From Scytolyngbya sp. HA4215-MV1 (GTDB lineage: Bacteria; Cyanobacteriota; Cyanobacteriia; Leptolyngbyales; Leptolyngbyaceae), in NCBI GenBank assembly GCA_019359045.1, contig JAHHIA010000004.1:310001-374000 (forward strand): a stretch of DNA of 64,000 nucleotides, read 5' to 3'. The notes beneath the pieces are model-generated. The model saw nothing but the letters and a program-made list of their open reading frames with translations. It was not told the origin of the DNA and made no database searches. Below are positions 9,035-61,933 of the stretch, one piece after another. Position 1 is the first letter of the stretch. Each line of letters opens with the position of its first letter. A program made the position numbers and the translations under genes.

Positions 9035-10198
9035 TCAACTTATCTCGATCGCTCGAATCGCTTCGGCAGGAGCGGTGCCTTCCAGCACTGCCTGAATGCC
9101 GGGAAGATATTGATCCATGGTTAAAACGTTGGTGTAAACCAGTTGTTTGATGAGGGCAGGAGTGAGGCGATCGCCTTCTACATCAATGCTGGTTTTGTAG
9201 CGAATTTCGCCATCATTGAAGTCGAGTTCAAAGTTGCCAATGATCATGCCGTAGTTGGCGTGGGCAAGAAATTCACTAACAGGTTGTCTTTTATCTTCTG
9301 GTGTTTTAATTGCAGCAACAGAGTAAAAAACAAATTGCTGCTTCTCCTCTCTAGCTTGGGCATAACAAGTCCAAGCCCCGTTTTTACCCTGAAAGGCTAG
9401 TTGTAGGTAAGACTCCCCTTGAGGCTTACTAAATGACCAGTCATCTTGGGTAAAGAAGTGAATGACCTGTTCAAGGAGAGGCTGCTTCGTTACAGCAGCC
9501 TGCCAATCTTTTTTTAGTTGATGTTCGATCTCCTGAATTAACTGAGAGAATGGTTCTAAATTTATGTTGGAGAATTCTGCTAAAAGATGATTGATGCTTT
9601 GGGAGAAATCAGAGACTAATTTCTCAGATACAGCAGATACGTTATGTTCACTCCAATCTTTGAAGAATTGAAATAAAGCATCAGAAGCTGGATCTTCTGA
9701 TTCACTTGCTTGAGCCAACGCTGATGGGCTTAAGTAATCCCAGAGAGTACGATAGCCTACCTCTCCAAATTCTTGGGACTGTGTGGCTGAAAGCAATAAC
9801 CAACTTTCAGTACATACCAACGGATGATCAGGTTGCTCTTGACTCAGCTTAATCAAATAAGATGCGGCTTCACTAGCATCCGTTGCCTGTTCTATTAATT
9901 GAGATAGGAGATCATTCTTTAAAGCAATTGTGATGTGAATATCTGTTTCGGGTTTAAAGAAGCAATCTACAGTGAAAACCCGAATTTCTGGATTAAAATT
10001 AAATAGCGCTTCAGTATTAATGTGCTGGAAAAGGTCTGAGCCAACCTTAAACATTAAATGACATTCAATGATTCTATTGTCTAATTTTATTAGCGCCAGT
10101 TGCACTATGTAGAAGAATAATGAAGATTGAGAGCGATCATATATAGATATCGACTCATTGACTTGCAAACGCTGGGTTTGTAGATCCATAACAACCAT
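9035..10198 (-). CDS. YbjN-domain protein with unknown N-terminal region
   Basis: The C-terminal ~140 residues (about 250-385) match the YbjN / type III secretion chaperone-like fold common in cyanobacteria: LLEQVIHFFTQDDWSF, a beta-sheet with AWTCYAQ, then NFELDFNDGEIRYKTS and the MDQYLPGIQAVL helix. The N-terminal ~240 residues are acidic, helical and unfamiliar. The frame can extend to a TTG at 10240; the ATG at 10198 was preferred. It lies downstream of the candidate immunity gene on the same strand, with a short gap, so the toxin, immunity and YbjN genes may form one transcript. YbjN folds often act as chaperone-like partners, which could fit, but this is inference. Confidence 0.7.
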   Translation of the reverse strand: MVVMDLQTQRLQVNESISIYDRSQSSLFFYIVQLALIKLDNRIIECHLMFKVGSDLFQHINTEALFNFNPEIRVFTVDCFFKPETDIHITIALKNDLLSQLIEQATDASEAASYLIKLSQEQPDHPLVCTESWLLLSATQSQEFGEVGYRTLWDYLSPSALAQASESEDPASDALFQFFKDWSEHNVSAVSEKLVSDFSQSINHLLAEFSNINLEPFSQLIQEIEHQLKKDWQAAVTKQPLLEQVIHFFTQDDWSFSKPQGESYLQLAFQGKNGAWTCYAQAREEKQQFVFYSVAAIKTPEDKRQPVSEFLAHANYGMIIGNFELDFNDGEIRYKTSIDVEGDRLTPALIKQLVYTNVLTMDQYLPGIQAVLEGTAPAEAIRAIEIS

Positions 10199-10244
10199 TA
10201 AACCCCAAGAATTGTTTAAATTAACTATCAACAAAACCAAAGTT

Positions 10245-10793
10245 TCAATTCTTTGGACAAGGACTTAATATATCCTCAAATACTAAATATTCGACAGTCA
10301 CCTGTGAGCCAAAGATAGTAACTTCTTCTGGAAAAAATAAGTCAGGAACAGTCTCACTAATTTCCGCGTAAGTTAAACGTATGAAGCCAAGTTCCAATAA
10401 TGATTTGCATATTTCATCATCAAAATTGTATTGTGACTTACTATAAGCTTGTCCAGAAAACCCGTCTAGATCAGGAAGTATTCGATCTTCATCTTTATTT
10501 ATAACTATAAACTCATGTTGAAGATAAAAAACTTTAATCAGCTTTGAAATAAGAAGAACGCTTGAAAAGCTAGCCTCAAACTCACCTTTCACAACTTTTT
10601 TGAAATGAAATTTCCACTTTGCAGAAGGATATATATCAGGTTTTTTATACTCGACAATTTTTATACCATTATCCTCAATAACGGTATGCAATTTCTTAGG
10701 TAAAGTAAGAATTTGACTGCATTTTTCAAGAAAAAAATCACAGTCATTCTCTTTATAAATTCGATTGATAATCTCCTTGACCACTCTATTCAT
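10245..10793 (-). CDS. Candidate immunity protein for the adjacent DUF4157 toxin
   Basis: A 182-residue acidic protein that I do not recognise. It starts 16 bases after the stop of the giant DUF4157 gene, on the same strand, the standard position for an immunity gene in polymorphic toxin systems. Its base composition is clearly AT-richer than the housekeeping genes around, as is usual for recently acquired immunity genes. No membrane helix, signal peptide or catalytic motif is visible, which fits a cytoplasmic inhibitor that binds the toxin tip. The function is inferred from position only. Confidence 0.6.
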   Translation of the reverse strand: MNRVVKEIINRIYKENDCDFFLEKCSQILTLPKKLHTVIEDNGIKIVEYKKPDIYPSAKWKFHFKKVVKGEFEASFSSVLLISKLIKVFYLQHEFIVINKDEDRILPDLDGFSGQAYSKSQYNFDDEICKSLLELGFIRLTYAEISETVPDLFFPEEVTIFGSQVTVEYLVFEDILSPCPKN

Positions 10794-10809: not shown

Positions 10810-13800
10810 TTAATTCAGTTTCAAGTTATGACCTCCACTGCGGTCAGCAGGATCCGTCTGCACATCGGCAAAATTGAATTCGCCCTGGTGAATGCCGTCT
10901 GCATTACACTTCTCGAATGTTCCATGCTGAGTATCTACTCCATATAAATCTCCAGTTGCTGGATCTCTATAGACTGTGCGGTTATTGATTCTACTTAGTC
11001 GCGTATCTTTTTCAAACCCTTTTTGCGAAGCAATTTTACCTGCTTGTTCTTCAACGCGTGCTACCCGCTCACTAGGACTGAGTTTCTTGATCTCCTCAAT
11101 AAATGCCTGATTATCAAACTTACTTTCCGGCTTGAACTCCTTTTCGATCTCGCCCTTAAGTTCCTCAGCTTTTGTCCTCAGATCGTCAAATTCATCTCGG
11201 AATTTGTCGGCTTCATTCTTTGCCAAGCCCTCGATGTCTGGATCCCCTTTTGCATCCTCTATTCCTGCCTCTTTCACTTTTTCAGACAGAGCTTTTAGTT
11301 CAGCATCAAGTTCCTTCAGTTGATTATTGAATTTATCGTTATTCAAAAGCTTCCTAAGCTGTTCAGCCTGTGCTAGATCCTCTCGTTTTCCACTCCTGCG
11401 TAGTTCCTCTATCTGCTTGCTTAACTTTTCCTTTTCGCCTTTCAGTGACTTATTAACTTCTTTGAGAGATTCTTGTGCAGCAGACTCGGTTTTGGATAAT
11501 TGCTCCAGTTTAGTCTCCAAGGTCTCATTCTCACGAGCTTTCTTGCGGATCTCGGCTAAATCCTGCTCGACCTTTTCAAACTCGATGATCTTTTCCTCTA
11601 GATGCTTTTCAGCTTCGGTCAGTTCTTGCTTGGCCTTCTCAAATTCGGCTTTCTGTGCTTCAGGATCTTGTATTCCTTCAAGCTTTTTCTTAGACTGCTC
11701 AAACCTTTCCTTGGCTTGCTTAACCCCTTGGTCTGCCGTATTGATCCTTTCTTCAAACTTTTCCTTCGGATTGGCATTGATTTCCTCCCGATACTTTGCA
11801 TTGAGGCGATCGCACGGAGATGCACAGACGAGACACTCGCCATCCTCAGTAATCTTAACTTTGCGCTCACCATCAAGACTGGGCCTTTCAGATTGAAAGT
11901 CTGACCCAGGGTTGGCTTCGGGAGTATCTCCCTTAACTTCGGGTACTTCTGCCTTACCTTCTGGAACATCTCCCTTGACTTCCGGAGCATTCACTTTGAC
12001 TCCAGCTTCAGAGCCTTCTGCACCTTTGAATAGCCCTTTCACCCCTGCAACTAACTCAGAAGCAATTTCGCTAGCTAGCTCGCCCAGAACCACAAAAACT
12101 CCTGTAATTCCCAGCGTCAAGCTACTATTGGCAATTCGTTCATAGGCACTATCCTGCTTGCTTTCCGGTCCAAAAGCGAGGTCGTAAACAGCTTTGGCAA
12201 TTACGGCTGTTTCGGTCGCTACCATTGCTATCAGTAATCCTTCTCCAACCTCTCCAGCAAAGGCAAGCCCTGCTCCAGCCCCTGGAAGCGCACCTGCACC
12301 ACCAAAGAAAGCGCCAATAATTGCGCCTACTAAAATGGAGGCGATCGTAAACCAACCGTAGAACAATCCAATAACGCTATTCAGTTTTTGTTGTAGCGAT
12401 AGGAACTGATCGATCGCGGTACTAATATTTCCACTGGTCAGACTCTTAAGAATCTCCCCTGGAAGATGAATTAACTCTCCAACATCTTTTTTAAGCGGGC
12501 TTTTTTCGTTGAAGGGCCAAATCAAGTTCCAAACCATTTGTTTGATTTCGCCCCACCAGTTTGCCTTCAGGTGTTGTAGAGCTGGTTCCAATTTGCTCCA
12601 AATTCCCTTTAAGTGCTTTTGCAGAGGCTTACTGACCTTCTGCATGGCAGTTTCAATGGCTTCACGGGTTTTATCAGGAATCTGGTCAACTAGCTCTTGC
12701 AACTTCACTTTTGCAGCTGCTTCAAACGCGGCTTCGCTCTCTTGGAGCTTCTTCCAACCATTCAGGAATATGCCATGTTTGCCAAGGAAAATGTCATACA
12801 GAAACTTGAAGAGAGATTGTTTATAGCAATCAGGAATGAGCTTCCAGGCGTTGTAAGCCAGAATAGCCGGAATCATGGCAGGATTGGCGATCGCCAACCC
12901 GATGGACAACAGCAACTCTTTGTAAGGTCCAACAACATTCTTGATCTTAGTGAATACTTCTTGCACTCCTTGAACAGCAGCCTGGAAAGTATTCTGTGCC
13001 CAAGTAACAGCTTGCTTGATATCATTCGCCAAGGTCTGTACTACACCTTGTGCCACGCTTAATATAGGCACGCCAGTAATGGAACTGAGTAGTCCAACAA
13101 CTGCCTGACCAATTTCAGTAATGTGATGGACAAAACCTGTCGCAGTTTCCTGTACTCCGTGAGCAAATCCCTGGAGCGATTCCAGAAGTTGGGGGAGAAT
13201 TGTGTTGCCCATCTCTTCACGGGCATGTTTCACAATGTCTTTGTCGCTACGATGTGCCCATAACCACTGGGCTGCTTGGATCAGTTGTGGACCATATTTA
13301 ATGGCTCCTGCCAGCAACCCGACGGGTGAGAATGCCAGTAATACCATTCCCACCTTTTTCAACGGCTCTATCACAGGTGCCAGCGTTGCCTGAATTTTTG
13401 TCCAGGCTTCTGCTGCTTTTGTCTTCAGCCAACTTAAAACGCCACCTGCTCCATCACTGATAATGCCTAATTTTTCCTTCACCCAGTCCCAGGCAGCACC
13501 AAGCGCGCTTCTAACCGGAGCGCCCCATTCCCAAATCGTCGTTGCCAGGTTTGTGATACCTGTAACAACACTCCCTGCGATTTGCATAACTTTGTCGATC
13601 GCCGGGGAAATAATTGCATCATTAATTTTCTTAAAAACACTACCGACTTTGGCAAAGGCTGCCTGGATCTCCTTCATGACGGGGCTATTCATGAAAGCAT
13701 GCCCCATCTCTTGTAACGACCCTAGTATTTGATTGAAAGCGGCACAGGAAGCAGCATCTCCTTTTGCAGCTCCCTTGATGGTTTCAAATACATTGGTAAA

Positions 13801-15399
13801 ACTACCTTTCAATCCAGCAATGACATTGCCGATATTGACACCCGATGCAACACCGGAGACCCAGCTTTTAACCCCTTCTTTGATTTTTTCCGTCAATAAC
13901 CCCAACGGTCCCTGGCGCATCAGATCAGCTAAACCGGGGGCAACTCTGGCAACTAGCGCAGCAAAAGCATCCTTGCCCATTGAAGCTGCTTGTCCAGCCT
14001 TATCCCCGACCCATTGGGCACCTGCACCTGCGGCATTCTTGACATCATCCCAACCAAATTTCTGAACTGCTTTATTGTCCTGGGTATAGGGAGTAATATT
14101 TTCAGAAATTTGCTTACGTTGAATCGTTTTCTCAGCCTCTTCCTCTGCTTCGCAGGCAGCACACTTAATCTGCATGTTAGGAACTGCATCTTTGTTGCCC
14201 TGCGGCTTTACCTGTAAGGTCGAAGTAGAAGTTGCAGATAATGAAACAGCCGAATCTAGTTTGGTATGCAATCTTTCCTTATTCGCCAAGGAATGATGGT
14301 CTAGTTTCTGTTCAGAGTATTCAGTGACATAGTCCGCGCACTTCAACTGAAGCGCAGGCGACTGAGTATTCTGCTTGGCTGCTATCTGGTTATCTCGATT
14401 GTTAATGGGGTGAGATAGCTCTATTTTTGCCTGCAACAGACTATCAGAAACAGGATTCAGTTTTGGCTGGAGTGATAGTTTGGGTGATTTGCGATCGGTA
14501 TCGAGTTTCTGTCGTAAAGTTTTAGCTCCCATCTGCTGCACCACATGGGTCAACTCATGGGCAGTTAACTCATTATTTCCAGGAGACTTGCCTGCCCCAA
14601 AGTAAACATCACTCCCATGAGTGAATGCCTGCGCCCCTACCTCCCGATTCATCTGCACTGCATCGCCGCCTGTATGCACCCGCACCTGACTAAAATCAGC
14701 GCCAAAGCGCGGCTCCATAAACGATCTCACTCCATCCGGTAACGGGCTGCCGTTCCCCTTACTCGCATTTAGCCGACTTTCCAGAGCAGGAGATGCAGAT
14801 GCAGATCGATCGCCCAATCTCTGCACTGTCTCCTCTTGCTCACACGCCTCACACTTAGGCTGCAGCGTCTCTTCCTCGTCTTCTACCTGGCGCTGCACCA
14901 GGGGAGTAATCGTATCTGCGATCGGCTTTGTTTGAATCGCACCCTCAGCTTCTGCCTCCTCTGCAATATCTGAGTCTGTTTGGCGCTGTACTGAGAAAGC
15001 AGGAGCGGGCATTGTCATGACCTGGTCAGCCACGCGATCGGCTTCCTGCTCGTAGGGGTTATTAGGACGCCCGATCGTCAGTTTTGCCTGTATCCCCTTC
15101 CACTTCGGTGGATCAGGAGGTGTTTGTCCAGCCGCATACAAACTGACACGACTCCAATCGATTTCTGCCCTCTTGGGTTCTGGTTCGGCTGAGGTGTCCG
15201 CAGGCGGCGCCGGTTTGGGCGAAGCGATCGGCTCCGCACTCCAGGTCTCATGAGGGCGACGGGGAAACGGATTGGTCGGTGACGAAGCAATTTCCTGCCC
15301 CGGATAGGTCACCTCAAAGGGTCGCGGTGTGAAAGGATTGCTTTTGGGCGTACCAGCTTTGGGTTGCGAACCAGAGCCTTGAGTTTCGTGAGCGTGCAT
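10810..15399 (-). CDS. Giant DUF4157 protein with C-terminal colicin E3-type ribonuclease domain
   Basis: 1529 residues. The N-terminus is Pro-rich (1-100). A DUF4157 domain follows at about 205-292 with the zinc-protease-like HELTH (281-285); DUF4157 is known as a marker of cargo of extracellular contractile injection systems. Three short Cys-containing spacers (KCEACEQEE, LKCADY, IKCAACEAEEE) lie around it. A long amphipathic helical region follows, then a Gly/Ala-rich hydrophobic segment at about 1010-1080, PEVKGD-type repeats near 1130-1180, a CLVCASPC motif and a coiled coil at about 1205-1450. The last ~60 residues (10813-10992) resemble the colicin E3 rRNase: D1489, H1492 and E1496 in VDTQHGTFE match the spacing of the E3 catalytic D-x2-H-x3-E, followed by DGIHQGEF. 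The domain order suggests a delivered antibacterial toxin. No injection-system structural genes are in the window. Confidence 0.85.
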   Translation of the reverse strand: MHAHETQGSGSQPKAGTPKSNPFTPRPFEVTYPGQEIASSPTNPFPRRPHETWSAEPIASPKPAPPADTSAEPEPKRAEIDWSRVSLYAAGQTPPDPPKWKGIQAKLTIGRPNNPYEQEADRVADQVMTMPAPAFSVQRQTDSDIAEEAEAEGAIQTKPIADTITPLVQRQVEDEEETLQPKCEACEQEETVQRLGDRSASASPALESRLNASKGNGSPLPDGVRSFMEPRFGADFSQVRVHTGGDAVQMNREVGAQAFTHGSDVYFGAGKSPGNNELTAHELTHVVQQMGAKTLRQKLDTDRKSPKLSLQPKLNPVSDSLLQAKIELSHPINNRDNQIAAKQNTQSPALQLKCADYVTEYSEQKLDHHSLANKERLHTKLDSAVSLSATSTSTLQVKPQGNKDAVPNMQIKCAACEAEEEAEKTIQRKQISENITPYTQDNKAVQKFGWDDVKNAAGAGAQWVGDKAGQAASMGKDAFAALVARVAPGLADLMRQGPLGLLTEKIKEGVKSWVSGVASGVNIGNVIAGLKGSFTNVFETIKGAAKGDAASCAAFNQILGSLQEMGHAFMNSPVMKEIQAAFAKVGSVFKKINDAIISPAIDKVMQIAGSVVTGITNLATTIWEWGAPVRSALGAAWDWVKEKLGIISDGAGGVLSWLKTKAAEAWTKIQATLAPVIEPLKKVGMVLLAFSPVGLLAGAIKYGPQLIQAAQWLWAHRSDKDIVKHAREEMGNTILPQLLESLQGFAHGVQETATGFVHHITEIGQAVVGLLSSITGVPILSVAQGVVQTLANDIKQAVTWAQNTFQAAVQGVQEVFTKIKNVVGPYKELLLSIGLAIANPAMIPAILAYNAWKLIPDCYKQSLFKFLYDIFLGKHGIFLNGWKKLQESEAAFEAAAKVKLQELVDQIPDKTREAIETAMQKVSKPLQKHLKGIWSKLEPALQHLKANWWGEIKQMVWNLIWPFNEKSPLKKDVGELIHLPGEILKSLTSGNISTAIDQFLSLQQKLNSVIGLFYGWFTIASILVGAIIGAFFGGAGALPGAGAGLAFAGEVGEGLLIAMVATETAVIAKAVYDLAFGPESKQDSAYERIANSSLTLGITGVFVVLGELASEIASELVAGVKGLFKGAEGSEAGVKVNAPEVKGDVPEGKAEVPEVKGDTPEANPGSDFQSERPSLDGERKVKITEDGECLVCASPCDRLNAKYREEINANPKEKFEERINTADQGVKQAKERFEQSKKKLEGIQDPEAQKAEFEKAKQELTEAEKHLEEKIIEFEKVEQDLAEIRKKARENETLETKLEQLSKTESAAQESLKEVNKSLKGEKEKLSKQIEELRRSGKREDLAQAEQLRKLLNNDKFNNQLKELDAELKALSEKVKEAGIEDAKGDPDIEGLAKNEADKFRDEFDDLRTKAEELKGEIEKEFKPESKFDNQAFIEEIKKLSPSERVARVEEQAGKIASQKGFEKDTRLSRINNRTVYRDPATGDLYGVDTQHGTFEKCNADGIHQGEFNFADVQTDPADRSGGHNLKLN

Positions 15400-57814: not shown

Positions 57815-60800
57815 ATGGGTGCTTCCAACGCAGCGACCAATCCTTTCTACGATGCTTTTATTTCCTATGGTCGAGCGGATAGTAAGTCCTTCGCAACCCG
57901 GTTATACCAACGTTTGCTAGAACAGGGACTTAGTGTCTGGTTTGACCAAAACGATATTCCCTTAGGTGTAGATTTTCAGTCTCAAATTAATGATGGCTTA
58001 GAAAGAGCGGATAACTTTCTGTTTATCATCGCTCCCCACTCGATTAACTCCCCTTACTGCGGCAAGGAAATCAGCCTCGCCCTGCAGCGAAACAAGCGAA
58101 TTATCCCGCTGCTGCATGTGGAACATATTAGCCGTGAGACCTGGCAAACCCGCAACCCCAAAGGGACAGATGAACAGTGGGCAGCCTATCAGACACAGGG
58201 ATTGCATTCCAGCTTCGCCAATATGCATCCAGAGATTGGCAAAATTAACTGGGTCTACTTTCGCGAGGATGTGGATGACTTTGAGCAGGCATTCAGCGGA
58301 CTGCTCAGCATTTTCCAGCGTCAACGCGACTATGTGCATCAACACACGGTTTTACTGGTGCGGGCGCTGGAGTGGGAACAAAATCAAAAGCAAACCCGGT
58401 ATCTGTTAGTTGGAGAAGAGCGGCAACAGGCAGAACGTTGGCTCAAGCATCGGTTTCACGAAGAACAAGCACCCTGTGAACCCACTGTCTTGCACAGTGA
58501 ATTCATCTGCGAGAGCATCAAGAATGCCAATAACTTGATGACTCAAGTCTTTCTCTCTTATGCCGACGCAAATCGCCCTTTGATGGAGCAAATTCGTAGT
58601 TTGCTGATGCGCGAGGGGATTACGGTGTGGACTAGCCAGACCGATATTCAAACCGGGGAAGCGTTTGAGGGGGCGATCGAACGCGGCATTGAGCAAACCG
58701 ATACAATTATCTACCTGCTCTCACCTCAGTCGTTGCAATCGTCCTATTGTCAGCACGAGGTTGACTATGCCTTGGGTCTCCATAAACGGCTGATCCCCCT
58801 GCTGGTGCAACCGATCGACCTGGAGCAGGTGCCATCGTCCATCAAGTCATTGCAGTTTATTAACTTTACTGACAACGCCACGATCGCGGATACCCAGCAG
58901 GACCTGGATCAGTTACTGAAAGCATTAGGCGAGGATGCTGCCTATTATGAGGAACACAAGCTGCTGCTGACCAAAGCCCTGAAGTGGGAACGCCAGAGCC
59001 GCAACCCCACGATTTTGCTGCGGGGTTATAACTTACGTCGAGCAGAAGACTGGTTTAAGGGCGCTCAACACCGCGCTCAGCATCCACCCACTGCCTTACA
59101 AGAGGAGTTTATTACCGAGAGTTTGCGCCAACCTCCGGCAACCTCGTTAGATGTGTTTATTTCCTATTCGCGCGCCGATTCTGAGTTAGCCCGCCGACTG
59201 AACGATGAATTGCAAACTCGTGGTAAAACCACCTGGTTTGATCAGGAAAGTATTGCCTCAGGAGCAGACTTCCAGCAGGAAATTTATCGGGGCATTGAAA
59301 GCGCAGACAACTTTTTGTTTATTCTGTCGCCCCGATCGGTCAATTCCCCCTATTGCGCCGATGAGGTGGAGTATGCAGCCAAGCTAAACAAACGCTTTGT
59401 CACAATATTGCATCACGCGATCGACCCGTCCACCCTCCATCCCGAATTAGCCAAGGTGCAATGGATCGATTTCCATCAACGCGGTGGAGATTTTTACGCT
59501 AACTTCAATCACCTAGTCCGCACCCTGGAGACCGATCGCGAACATGTGCATAGTCATACGCGATGGTCGTTGCGAGCATTGGAATGGCAGGACAAAGATC
59601 GCAATGAAGATCTGTTATTGCGAGGCATTGAGCGAGTCACCGCAGTTGCCTGGTTACAGGAAGCAATACAAGGCAAGAAACAGCCTGCTGTCACCGAGTT
59701 GCAACAGACGTTTATTAACGCCAGCACCGCCTTGCACGATCGCATTCAGCAGCAGGAGCAAATACGGCAGCAGCGGGAATTGGATCAGGCGATCAAAGCC
59801 CGTAAAGCTGCCCAACTGATCGCTGCGATTACCTCGATCGGCGGCACCCTGATGGCAGGTTTAGTGGTATTCGCTGGCGTTCAGGTCAGACAAGCCGAAA
59901 TTCAACAAATTCTAGCCATCCGTTCCTCAGCAGAGGCAGAGTTAGCCTCAGGCGCAGAGTTGGAAAGTGTGCTGGAAAGTTTACAAATGAGTAAAATGCT
60001 GCGGCAGTCCTTCTGGCAAGCGATTTGGCCAAAAGCAGGACTCAACCGACAAGTGCTGGACCAGCTGAGTAAGACAGTATACGCTGTCCAGAATGCGAAC
60101 CATGCCGGAGAACAGAATCGCCTGGAAGGACATACTGATTCAGTCTTCGATGTCGCCTTCAGCCCCGATGGCAAAATCATTGCCTCTGCCAGTGTGGATC
60201 AGACGGTAAAACTGTGGGATCAGAATGGCAAACTGTTGCGAACGCTGCCCGAACAAGAGGCTGCAGTCAGAGGAGTCACTTTTAGTCCCGATGGTAAGAT
60301 TCTTGCTACTGCGGGTGAAGATAAAACGGTAAAACTGTGGAGTCTGGATGGCAACCTCTTACACACGCTGAAGGGGCACACGGGACAGGTGCTGGACGTT
60401 GTTTTCAGTCCAGATGGCACGCTGATAGCCTCTGCTAGTCAGGATAGAACCGTAAAACTGTGGAGTGCTGATGGCAAACTGCTGCACACTTTGAGTGGAC
60501 ACCATAAGCGAGTGAATGGAGTGGCGTTTAGTCCAGATGGCAACCTCATTGCCTCTGCCAGTGGAGACCGAACGGTGAAACTGTGGAGTCGGAGTGGCAA
60601 ACTGTTGCGAACTCTACTGGGACACCAAGGTGGCGTCTATGCGGTCACCTTTAGTCCGGATGGCACGACGATCGCCTCTGCCAGTGGGGATAACATGGTA
60701 AGACTGTGGAGTCGGAATGGCGCACTCTTGCAGATCTTGCCGGGGCATACGGAGGTCGTGAGTGGTGTAGCATTTAGTCCCAATGGCAAAATTCTGGCGT

Positions 60801-61933
60801 CTGCCAGTTGGGATAGAACTGTGAAATTGTGGAATCGAGACGGCAAGCTCCTGCAAACGCTGCAAGGTCACGAGGATCCCGTGAAACGGGTGGCATTTAG
60901 TCCCGATGGCAGAACCCTCGCCTCCGCCAGCGAGGACAAGACGGTTAGACTCTGGAGTTGGAATGGCACACTTTTGCACACCCTAGAGGACCATACCGAT
61001 CAGGTCTGGGGTGTGGCATTCAGTCCCGACGGTAAAACTATTGCTTCCGCCAGTTTTGACAACACCGTGAACCTGTGGAATCCACAGGGGAGCCTGTTGC
61101 ACACCCTCTCAGGTCACCATAATTCGGTCTGGAGCGTGGCATTTAGTCCCGATGGCACTACGATCGCCTCTGGCAGTGAAGATAAGACTGTGAACTTGTG
61201 GAGTCGGGAAGGGACGCTCTTGAAAACGCTTCAGGGTCATCAGGATGCGGTTCGGTGTGTAGCATTTAGTCCCGATGGCACCACGATCGCCTCTGCCAGT
61301 CGAGACAAGACGATCAAACTATGGAGACAGGATGGCATCCTCATGCGCACCCTCCAGGGGCACAGTGCAGCGGTTAATGCGGTAGCATTTAGTCCCGATG
61401 GCACCACGATCGCCTCTGCCAGCGAGGATAAAACAATTAGGCTATGGAGTCGAGATGGCAAACTCTTACAGACCCTGACAGGACACCATGGTAAGGTGCT
61501 GAGTGTGGTCTTTAGTCCCGATAGTCAAACCCTGGCATCTACCAGTGACGACAGTACAGTTAGACTGTGGAGCCGAGATGGCAGACTCTTGCAAACTCTC
61601 TCAGACCATAGCGATGCAACTACCGGGATAGCCTTCAGTCCCGATGGCAAAACTCTGGCGTCTGCCAGTTGGGACAAGACCGTGAAAATATGGAGTCTGG
61701 ATGGTACGCTTTTGCAAACCCTTGAAGGGTCGCATGACGTACTCACAGCAATCGCATTTAGCCCTGATGGTAAAACCCTGGCGTCTGCCAGTCGGGACGA
61801 GACAGTGAAGCTCTGGTCGCTGGCAGGATGGGATGCTCTGATTCAGTCAGGATGCAGTTGGGTGCAAGATTATTTGGAGAATGACCCGAATGTCCAAAAG
61901 CGTGACAAACGTCTCTGTGATGGTATTCCCTAA
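57815..61933 (+). CDS. Triple-TIR, transmembrane, 14-WD40 giant protein
   Basis: 1372 residues. Three TIR domains: about 10-165, 243-370 and 444-570. Each keeps the YDAFISYGRADS-like first strand and a glutamate after the S-x-YC motif (E85, E315, E517), the position of the catalytic Glu in NAD-cleaving TIRs. After each TIR comes a copy of a helical linker (ALEWE..R....L..G, later ..WL or WF). One hydrophobic helix (about 666-691) follows, then fourteen WD40 repeats (about 771-1345) with the pattern FSPDG..IASAS.D.TVKLW, enough for two seven-blade propellers. It looks like a membrane-anchored sensor with NADase-type or scaffold TIRs. No partner genes are linked. Confidence 0.9.
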   Translation: MGASNAATNPFYDAFISYGRADSKSFATRLYQRLLEQGLSVWFDQNDIPLGVDFQSQINDGLERADNFLFIIAPHSINSPYCGKEISLALQRNKRIIPLLHVEHISRETWQTRNPKGTDEQWAAYQTQGLHSSFANMHPEIGKINWVYFREDVDDFEQAFSGLLSIFQRQRDYVHQHTVLLVRALEWEQNQKQTRYLLVGEERQQAERWLKHRFHEEQAPCEPTVLHSEFICESIKNANNLMTQVFLSYADANRPLMEQIRSLLMREGITVWTSQTDIQTGEAFEGAIERGIEQTDTIIYLLSPQSLQSSYCQHEVDYALGLHKRLIPLLVQPIDLEQVPSSIKSLQFINFTDNATIADTQQDLDQLLKALGEDAAYYEEHKLLLTKALKWERQSRNPTILLRGYNLRRAEDWFKGAQHRAQHPPTALQEEFITESLRQPPATSLDVFISYSRADSELARRLNDELQTRGKTTWFDQESIASGADFQQEIYRGIESADNFLFILSPRSVNSPYCADEVEYAAKLNKRFVTILHHAIDPSTLHPELAKVQWIDFHQRGGDFYANFNHLVRTLETDREHVHSHTRWSLRALEWQDKDRNEDLLLRGIERVTAVAWLQEAIQGKKQPAVTELQQTFINASTALHDRIQQQEQIRQQRELDQAIKARKAAQLIAAITSIGGTLMAGLVVFAGVQVRQAEIQQILAIRSSAEAELASGAELESVLESLQMSKMLRQSFWQAIWPKAGLNRQVLDQLSKTVYAVQNANHAGEQNRLEGHTDSVFDVAFSPDGKIIASASVDQTVKLWDQNGKLLRTLPEQEAAVRGVTFSPDGKILATAGEDKTVKLWSLDGNLLHTLKGHTGQVLDVVFSPDGTLIASASQDRTVKLWSADGKLLHTLSGHHKRVNGVAFSPDGNLIASASGDRTVKLWSRSGKLLRTLLGHQGGVYAVTFSPDGTTIASASGDNMVRLWSRNGALLQILPGHTEVVSGVAFSPNGKILASASWDRTVKLWNRDGKLLQTLQGHEDPVKRVAFSPDGRTLASASEDKTVRLWSWNGTLLHTLEDHTDQVWGVAFSPDGKTIASASFDNTVNLWNPQGSLLHTLSGHHNSVWSVAFSPDGTTIASGSEDKTVNLWSREGTLLKTLQGHQDAVRCVAFSPDGTTIASASRDKTIKLWRQDGILMRTLQGHSAAVNAVAFSPDGTTIASASEDKTIRLWSRDGKLLQTLTGHHGKVLSVVFSPDSQTLASTSDDSTVRLWSRDGRLLQTLSDHSDATTGIAFSPDGKTLASASWDKTVKIWSLDGTLLQTLEGSHDVLTAIAFSPDGKTLASASRDETVKLWSLAGWDALIQSGCSWVQDYLENDPNVQKRDKRLCDGIP

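Follow-up and report, generated by a model that had tools for sequence, protein, structure and literature searches.

A candidate injected-toxin cassette with a predicted colicin E3-type ribonuclease tip in the cyanobacterium Scytolyngbya sp. HA4215-MV1

For most DUF4157 cargo proteins no activity has been assigned, and the antibacterial eCIS toxins tested so far mostly come without a recognizable immunity gene. What, then, does the giant DUF4157 protein encoded in this window (the whole 64,000-nucleotide stretch of DNA analyzed here) do, and what do the genes beside it contribute? In our main reading, to which we give a probability of roughly 0.7, the locus is a three-gene injected-toxin cassette, comprising a cargo of a contractile injection system (CIS) with a 16S-cutting tip, an immunity gene, and a YbjN-family chaperone or adaptor. 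This reading draws on the observed DUF4157 domain, the colicin E3 signature and predicted fold of the tip, the gene order, the CIS genes of the genome and the neighborhood of YbjN genes; rRNA cleavage, delivery, immunity and chaperoning are what we infer.

A giant DUF4157 protein and its C-terminal tip

The list of open reading frames gives the toxin gene the coordinates, strand and length of 1529 aa that the initial annotation reported. Its features are as follows.

10810..15399, minus strand: giant cargo/toxin gene, 1529 aa, ATG start (ORF list; Pfam)
14749..15399, minus strand: Pro/Glu-rich N-terminal leader and spacer, residues 1-217 (pairwise BLAST)
14530..14748, minus strand: DUF4157/eCIS_core with HELTH motif, residues 218-290 (PF13699, E 1.9e-28, 98.9 bits)
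12070..14112, minus strand: helical body, residues ~430-1110, with homologues among the cargo bodies that two related genomes encode in CIS loci
12226..12387, minus strand: hydrophobic segment, residues ~1005-1058 (weak PF21724/DUF6861 match, under the cut-off)
11140..11853, minus strand: charged, probably coiled-coil stalk, residues ~1183-1420 (coiled-coil-type matches)
10813..11130, minus strand: predicted colicin E3-type ribonuclease tip, residues 1424-1529 (PF09000; AlphaFold2 model; Foldseek and VIA)

The DUF4157 domain, the hydrophobic stretches and the long charged helical segment described in the initial annotation are all present by Pfam, Kyte-Doolittle and coiled-coil-type matches, with a Kyte-Doolittle peak of 2.03 around residue 1010. 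Pairwise BLAST finds the stretch IQAKLTIGxPNxPYEQEADRVADQ (about residues 103-126) both in the window toxin and in other DUF4157 proteins. Receptor-binding and translocation domains of nuclease colicins are not among the Pfam matches of the 1,529-aa protein. At the charged stalk, a match to Ntox1 (residues 1169-1252, 20 bits against a cut-off of 25) was rejected as a second toxin and is treated as linker. Several cyanobacterial cargo proteins (the window toxin, the L034 toxin and ORF 1 of L055) carry a short Cys-containing module before the charged stalk, reading ITEDGxCLxCxSxC in the window toxin (residues 1169-1252) and IVRCSTCSEL in L055; this module in the region of weak Ntox1 similarity may be a pretoxin linker. 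Elsewhere in the window, at 57815..61933 on the plus strand, a gene encodes a protein of 1,372 aa that combines WD40 repeats with TIR domain(s), a possible defense or signaling protein.

The resemblance of the tip to colicin E3 was originally noticed from the motif D-x2-H-x3-E. This motif occurs once in the window toxin against a chance expectation of 0.11 for its composition, so that the motif alone is weak evidence. With the tip alone as query, PF09000 ('Cytotoxic') scores 24.5 bits (E 3.4e-5) against a Pfam gathering cut-off of 22 bits, and in the whole-protein scan only 19.6 bits, just under that cut-off. A profile search finds the window tip as the sole PF09000 match in the genome (24 bits), and six of the seven members of the tip alignment match the family. 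When a profile was built from E3-type tips of other bacteria only, the window tip scored 27.6 bits, versus at most 9.7 bits for 5,000 shuffled sequences. A single-sequence phmmer search of the PDB with the tip found no colicin, and the seven-member tip profile returned colicin E3 first, yet with an E-value of 0.13; the structural claim therefore rests on PF09000 and the fold.

An AlphaFold2 model of the tip, for which the input was an alignment of seven natural sequences including two E3-type rows, reached a pLDDT of 93.7 and a pTM of 0.83, from a program itself trained on E3 structures. Foldseek against the PDB returned colicin E3 for all of its top three matches, with probability 1.00 and E-values of only 0.02-0.05. 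In VIA-align, colicin E3 entries rank 1-5 (Z 8.1-8.4, 84-87 residues, rmsd 2.8-3.1), followed by CdiA-CT of Enterobacter cloacae at Z 6.2, with the first unrelated fold at Z 3.7. Colicin E3 being the best match of the modeled domain, the likeness proposed from the letters alone, which a model with no E3-fold match would have spoken against, held up. We regard an E3-type fold of the tip as very likely on the basis of this model, and at the level of sequence and predicted fold the last ~100 residues of the window toxin are a colicin E3-type domain.

The Tox-ColE3 signature of Zhang et al. consists of R, Dxx[HK], E and H (PMC3482391), and it is complete in the window tip (R1474, D1489/H1492, E1496 and H1504). 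Positions in the tip alignment, together with the distinctive histidine near the C-terminus, are given below.

10978..10980, minus strand: R1474, invariant in 7 of 7 tips
10933..10935, minus strand: D1489, aligned with Asp510 of colicin E3
10924..10926, minus strand: H1492, aligned with His513 of colicin E3; Lys in one relative
10912..10914, minus strand: E1496, aligned with Glu517 of colicin E3
10888..10890, minus strand: H1504, second His of the Tox-ColE3 signature (PMC3482391)
10828..10830, minus strand: H1524 of the SGGHxL end, the subfamily replacement for the Arg-containing end of colicin E3

D1489, H1492, T1494 and E1496 lie where the initial annotation had them, and its HQGEF begins at H1504. 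The R, D and E do not vary among the seven tips compared, and the H1504 position is Trp in one. The annotation had also pointed to Thr in place of E515 as a departure from colicin E3. This substitution is present, and it is no defect: Thr stands at the same position in E3-type tips of Gallibacterium (HGTME) and of two other cyanobacteria (HGTIE, HGTVE), and being common in such tips it is no argument against activity. The window tip departs from colicin E3 in its last ~10 residues, where the extreme C-terminus reads SGGHNLKLN, and G-x-H-x-L in relatives, versus the Arg-containing end of E3. Judged from the alignment, the SGGHxL end marks a tip subfamily. R545 in the C-terminal end of colicin E3 reportedly also contributes to activity.

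One possible consequence of this end is a redirected specificity, by which an E3-fold ribonuclease would cut another RNA (tRNA, mRNA or another rRNA site). Such a reading could point to the C-terminal strand, which departs from canonical E3 with an invariant His replacing the Arg region, and to the E3-like sequence similarity of the tip, which is concentrated in about 35-40 residues. It is nonetheless unlikely, given that CdiA-CT ECL, more distant from E3 at 17% identity, still cuts 16S rRNA at the bond of colicin E3, A1493-G1494 (PMC9086364), and that five Imm45-linked loci of the tip subfamily carry an immunity family assigned to Tox-ColE3 by Zhang et al. Signature and predicted fold favor cleavage of 16S rRNA at the E3 site as the probable activity of the tip.

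Tips related to this one stand at the ends of RHS, CdiA-like and HINT-bearing toxins of Caballeronia, Rhizobium, Paraburkholderia and Agrobacterium, and of a large Amycolatopsis protein (61% identity). The Amycolatopsis protein was considered as an eCIS cargo and not established as one: the gene is truncated by the contig start, and the 922 aa that remain give no DUF4157 match in Pfam. No relatives of the tip came from viral contigs or phage records. As a side observation, E3-type tips of Gallibacterium genomosp. 1 and 3 (L025, L026) are followed by a DUF7683 gene in the first case and by an ORF similar to it in the second; DUF7683 is likely an E3 immunity family.

Within the same class, genome G166, of another family, has a 293-aa ORF at a contig end with a canonical E3-type tip (IYEWDSQHGTIEKY, DPTRSVEP). 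The 87-aa gene after it is related to the gene that follows the E3-type tip of G109, and further downstream lie a body 50-62% identical to the cargo bodies of G025 and G032, a YbjN gene and a DUF4157 ORF. It thus seems that cyanobacterial injection cargo has acquired E3-type tips on more than one occasion, although the cut of the G166 contig bars proof of the DUF4157 linkage. The same array (contig 27; L055/L094) also includes another small gene and a second cargo body interrupted by a stop, and looks like an accumulation of tip-immunity cassettes.

Candidate immunity and YbjN-family genes

Two genes that the initial annotation overlooked follow the toxin gene on the same strand.

10245..10793, minus strand: candidate immunity gene, 182 aa, starting 16 bp after the toxin stop
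9035..10240, minus strand: two-domain YbjN-family protein, candidate cargo chaperone/adaptor, 401 aa as listed, with a true start that may lie further in (PF10722)

The 182-aa gene has a GC content of 30-33%, versus 43-59% along the length of the toxin gene. Its product has no meaningful match in Pfam, NCBIfam or the PDB (the best Pfam score, 13.9 bits, is far below the cut-off of that family); it does not match Imm45 (PF15572) and resembles neither cloacin immunity nor DUF7683. None of the other 41 genomes of the order has the gene, and the combination of tip and downstream 182-aa gene is found in 1 of 42. One good homologue occurs in the phylum (L054; 26% over 180 aa, E 7.8e-16), on a short contig and with no toxin adjoining.

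Zhang et al. paired both Imm45 and Imm-Cloacin with Tox-ColE3 (PMC3482391), a partnership that is usual, not strictly defining. In all five loci of the same tip subfamily that were checked by Pfam, Imm45 lies directly downstream of the toxin (52-77 bits), and a protective gene in that slot is therefore the rule. Position, spacing, strand, low GC and this conserved slot all argue against a second view of the 182-aa ORF, namely that it is unrelated and that the producer is protected otherwise, for example by release only from lysing cells. That view finds some footing in the many eCIS toxins without recognizable immunity genes (PMC8213781) and in the missing family match of the 182-aa protein, and we consider it rather improbable. 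By analogy with the relatives, an immunity function is the likely role of the gene, and the simplest reading is that a resident cargo body has received a different tip together with its immunity gene.

In the YbjN-family protein, PF10722 scores 41.6 bits (cut-off 22) over residues 256-383, behind an extra N-terminal domain. The gene is the only copy in the genome. Full-length two-domain YbjN genes occur in 3 of the 42 genomes of the order (this one, G021 twice, and G032), and at all four loci they are preceded, on their own strand, by a DUF4157 giant of 1,529-1,757 aa; G025 has two short YbjN genes in the corresponding place, and G009 has a fragment only. The order of toxin, small variable gene and YbjN gene recurs in G021 (contig 83) and G032, whose small genes are related to each other and unrelated to the 182-aa gene of the window. 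Across the phylum, a DUF4157 ORF lies within ~10 kb in 8 of 10 testable distant full-length two-domain loci (G126, G166, G397, G105, G293, G251 twice, and G213) and near 1 of 6 testable single-domain matches, where testable copies are those with enough flanking sequence; the count is limited by a DUF4157 profile built from the cargo set itself, and the neighborhood evidence by G166 C27 and G251 C42, in which the DUF4157 ORF is downstream of the YbjN gene.

YbjN proteins share the class I T3SS chaperone fold (PMC5398634). For the YbjN domain, single-sequence AlphaFold2 gave a low-confidence model (pLDDT 51), and a PDB search with the protein gave nothing useful. Among the open-access papers searched, none mentions both YbjN and contractile injection. 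By analogy of fold and neighborhood, we put the chance that the gene encodes a cargo chaperone at about even or slightly below. The wider idea that cyanobacterial injection systems use two-domain YbjN proteins as dedicated cargo chaperones, the counterpart of class IA T3SS chaperones, with genes directly behind those of the giant DUF4157 cargo and its variable immunity protein, is tentative and falls just short of an even bet.

Injection systems and delivery

The source genome (6.6 Mb, 33 contigs) was searched for eCIS genes, as the initial annotation had proposed, and two injection-system clusters were found. The first, at C23:76-91 kb, encodes a baseplate protein, gp25, a spike, CIS_tube, two sheath proteins and Pvc16_N; a pair of DUF4157 genes lies close to it, at 66 and 68 kb. 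The second is a tube/sheath cluster at C23:265-280 kb. The toxin cassette lies on C15, beside neither cluster, and tube genes occur on C23 only.

DUF4157 is a marker of eCIS toxins, often N-terminal, with a linker that can exceed 1000 aa separating it from the toxin domain (PMC8213781). In the window toxin, DUF4157/eCIS_core (98.9 bits) lies near the N-terminus of the 1,529-aa protein, and the genome has eCIS structural genes. The toxin gene is not within about 10 genes of an eCIS operon (contigs C15 versus C23), a location that 88% of known EATs share and that is statistical, not defining. In relatives, homologous bodies with other tips stand just downstream of a tape-measure-like gene, so labeled by sequence resemblance with no Pfam test (G021 contig 83, G022), and also adjoin spike, PAAR and AAA genes. 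Different tips on homologous bodies are as expected of a polymorphic toxin. DUF4157, body homologues in CIS loci and two clusters in the genome together bear out the cargo layout of a contractile injection system that had been read from the sequence, and delivery by such a system is, on these sequence grounds, the probable route.

The distance between the cassette and the injection clusters leaves room for two other explanations. First, given that some T6SS effectors carry DUF4157 as well (PMC11297309) and that the gene is remote from the clusters, the toxin could be delivered by a type VI or other secretion route. The genome, however, encodes gp19-type tube, CIS_tube, sheath and Pvc16_N proteins, and the homologous bodies of relatives sit inside CIS loci near the tape-measure-like, spike, PAAR and AAA genes, which, in a search that covered eCIS genes, makes this route very unlikely. 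Second, the locus could be a non-functional or orphan remnant, its toxin intact on paper, undelivered and retained through the immunity gene. An intact frame of 1,529 codons with a complete signature, co-directional partners separated by gaps of 4-16 bp, and a YbjN gene retained as the only copy in the genome speak against decay, so that we give little credence to this explanation even with the cassette isolated from structural genes and the tip and immunity gene confined to a single genome of the order. An injected toxin with its partner genes remains our preferred reading.

Ten other ORFs of the genome share an N-terminal leader (RP[FW]..., ADFSHVDLFSHAPxRxPIQ), which is more diverged in the C7:82948 ORF. 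These ORFs (loci L005 and L058-L062) lie at C19:60957, 109841, 112126 and 113469, at C15:265705 and 267953, at C23:279809 and 285244, and at C7:4163 and 82948. DUF4157 is missing from most of them, and in the second cluster the ORF at C23:279.8 kb directly follows a spike gene. The shared sequence has the look of a leader for cargo loading, carried by cargo genes scattered over the genome. Its presence on the window toxin was considered and rejected: the toxin appeared to match a leader HMM that included it, and scored 0.1 bits (best domain) with an HMM built from nine of the ten leader-bearing ORFs and without the toxin. As this HMM fails to match the window toxin, no loading signal is claimed for it.

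Proposed mechanism and comparison with known systems

In the proposed mechanism, the 1,529-aa cargo would run from a DUF4157 module through a long helical, in part hydrophobic body and a charged stalk to an E3-type ribonuclease at its C-terminus, and the YbjN-family protein would serve as a dedicated chaperone or adaptor, holding this giant cargo for loading. Inside the target cell, the tip would bind the 30S A site, where Asp1489, His1492 and Glu1496 would act as the acid-base set for a cut in 16S rRNA at the A1493-G1494 bond (E. coli numbering), and translation would stop. The 182-aa protein would bind the tip and so protect the producer.

If this reading holds, toxins of a class in which both are mostly missing would gain a target and a possible loading helper; for the window toxin, predictions can be made of the activity, the catalytic residues, the immunity gene and the target site, and its candidate immunity protein belongs to no Pfam family. 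It would also turn eCIS cargo into polymorphic toxins proper, with exchangeable tip-immunity cassettes. The YbjN fold, which is secretion-chaperone-like and has no known secretion role, would gain one, and the recurrent YbjN neighborhood offers a concrete candidate for the keeping and loading of large cargoes.

Colicin E3 and cloacin DF13 share with the window toxin the predicted E3 fold, the signature, the C-terminal position of the nuclease and a small gene downstream. The window toxin differs from them in its eCIS-type N-terminus, the absence of receptor and translocation domains, its SGGHxL end, and a candidate immunity gene that is not of cloacin type. The SGGH-type E3 tips of RHS and CdiA-type toxins belong to the same subfamily as the window tip (37-52% identity) and differ in their delivery modules (RHS, HINT or FHA) and in their immunity protein, Imm45. 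For Tox-ColE3, Zhang et al. list T2SS, T5SS and T7SS, not PVC (PMC3482391). In the open-access papers searched, colicin E3 and contractile injection systems were not found together; an earlier listing in survey supplements is possible.

The YbjN-family proteins AmyR and DR1245 have the PF10722 domain in common with the window protein, which differs from them in its fused extra N-terminal domain and in adjoining an injected-cargo gene. According to the AmyR paper, ybjN genes were found neither within type III secretion clusters nor beside type III secretion proteins.

The thylakoid-anchored CIS of Anabaena (Weiss 2022) is likewise a cyanobacterial system with DUF4157 proteins proposed as cargo; its particles contain Alr3311 and Alr3312 (PMC8894136). 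By their locus numbers these cargo genes adjoin the CIS cluster all3313-all3327, unlike the window toxin, and the available text assigns them no toxin activity. The eCIS toxins of Geller 2021 and Danov 2024 have the same layout as the window toxin, with an N-terminal DUF4157, a long linker and a C-terminal toxin domain. A colicin E3-type rRNase is not among the activities named in the available portions of those papers, and, compared with those toxins, the window toxin is accompanied by a candidate immunity gene and a YbjN gene.
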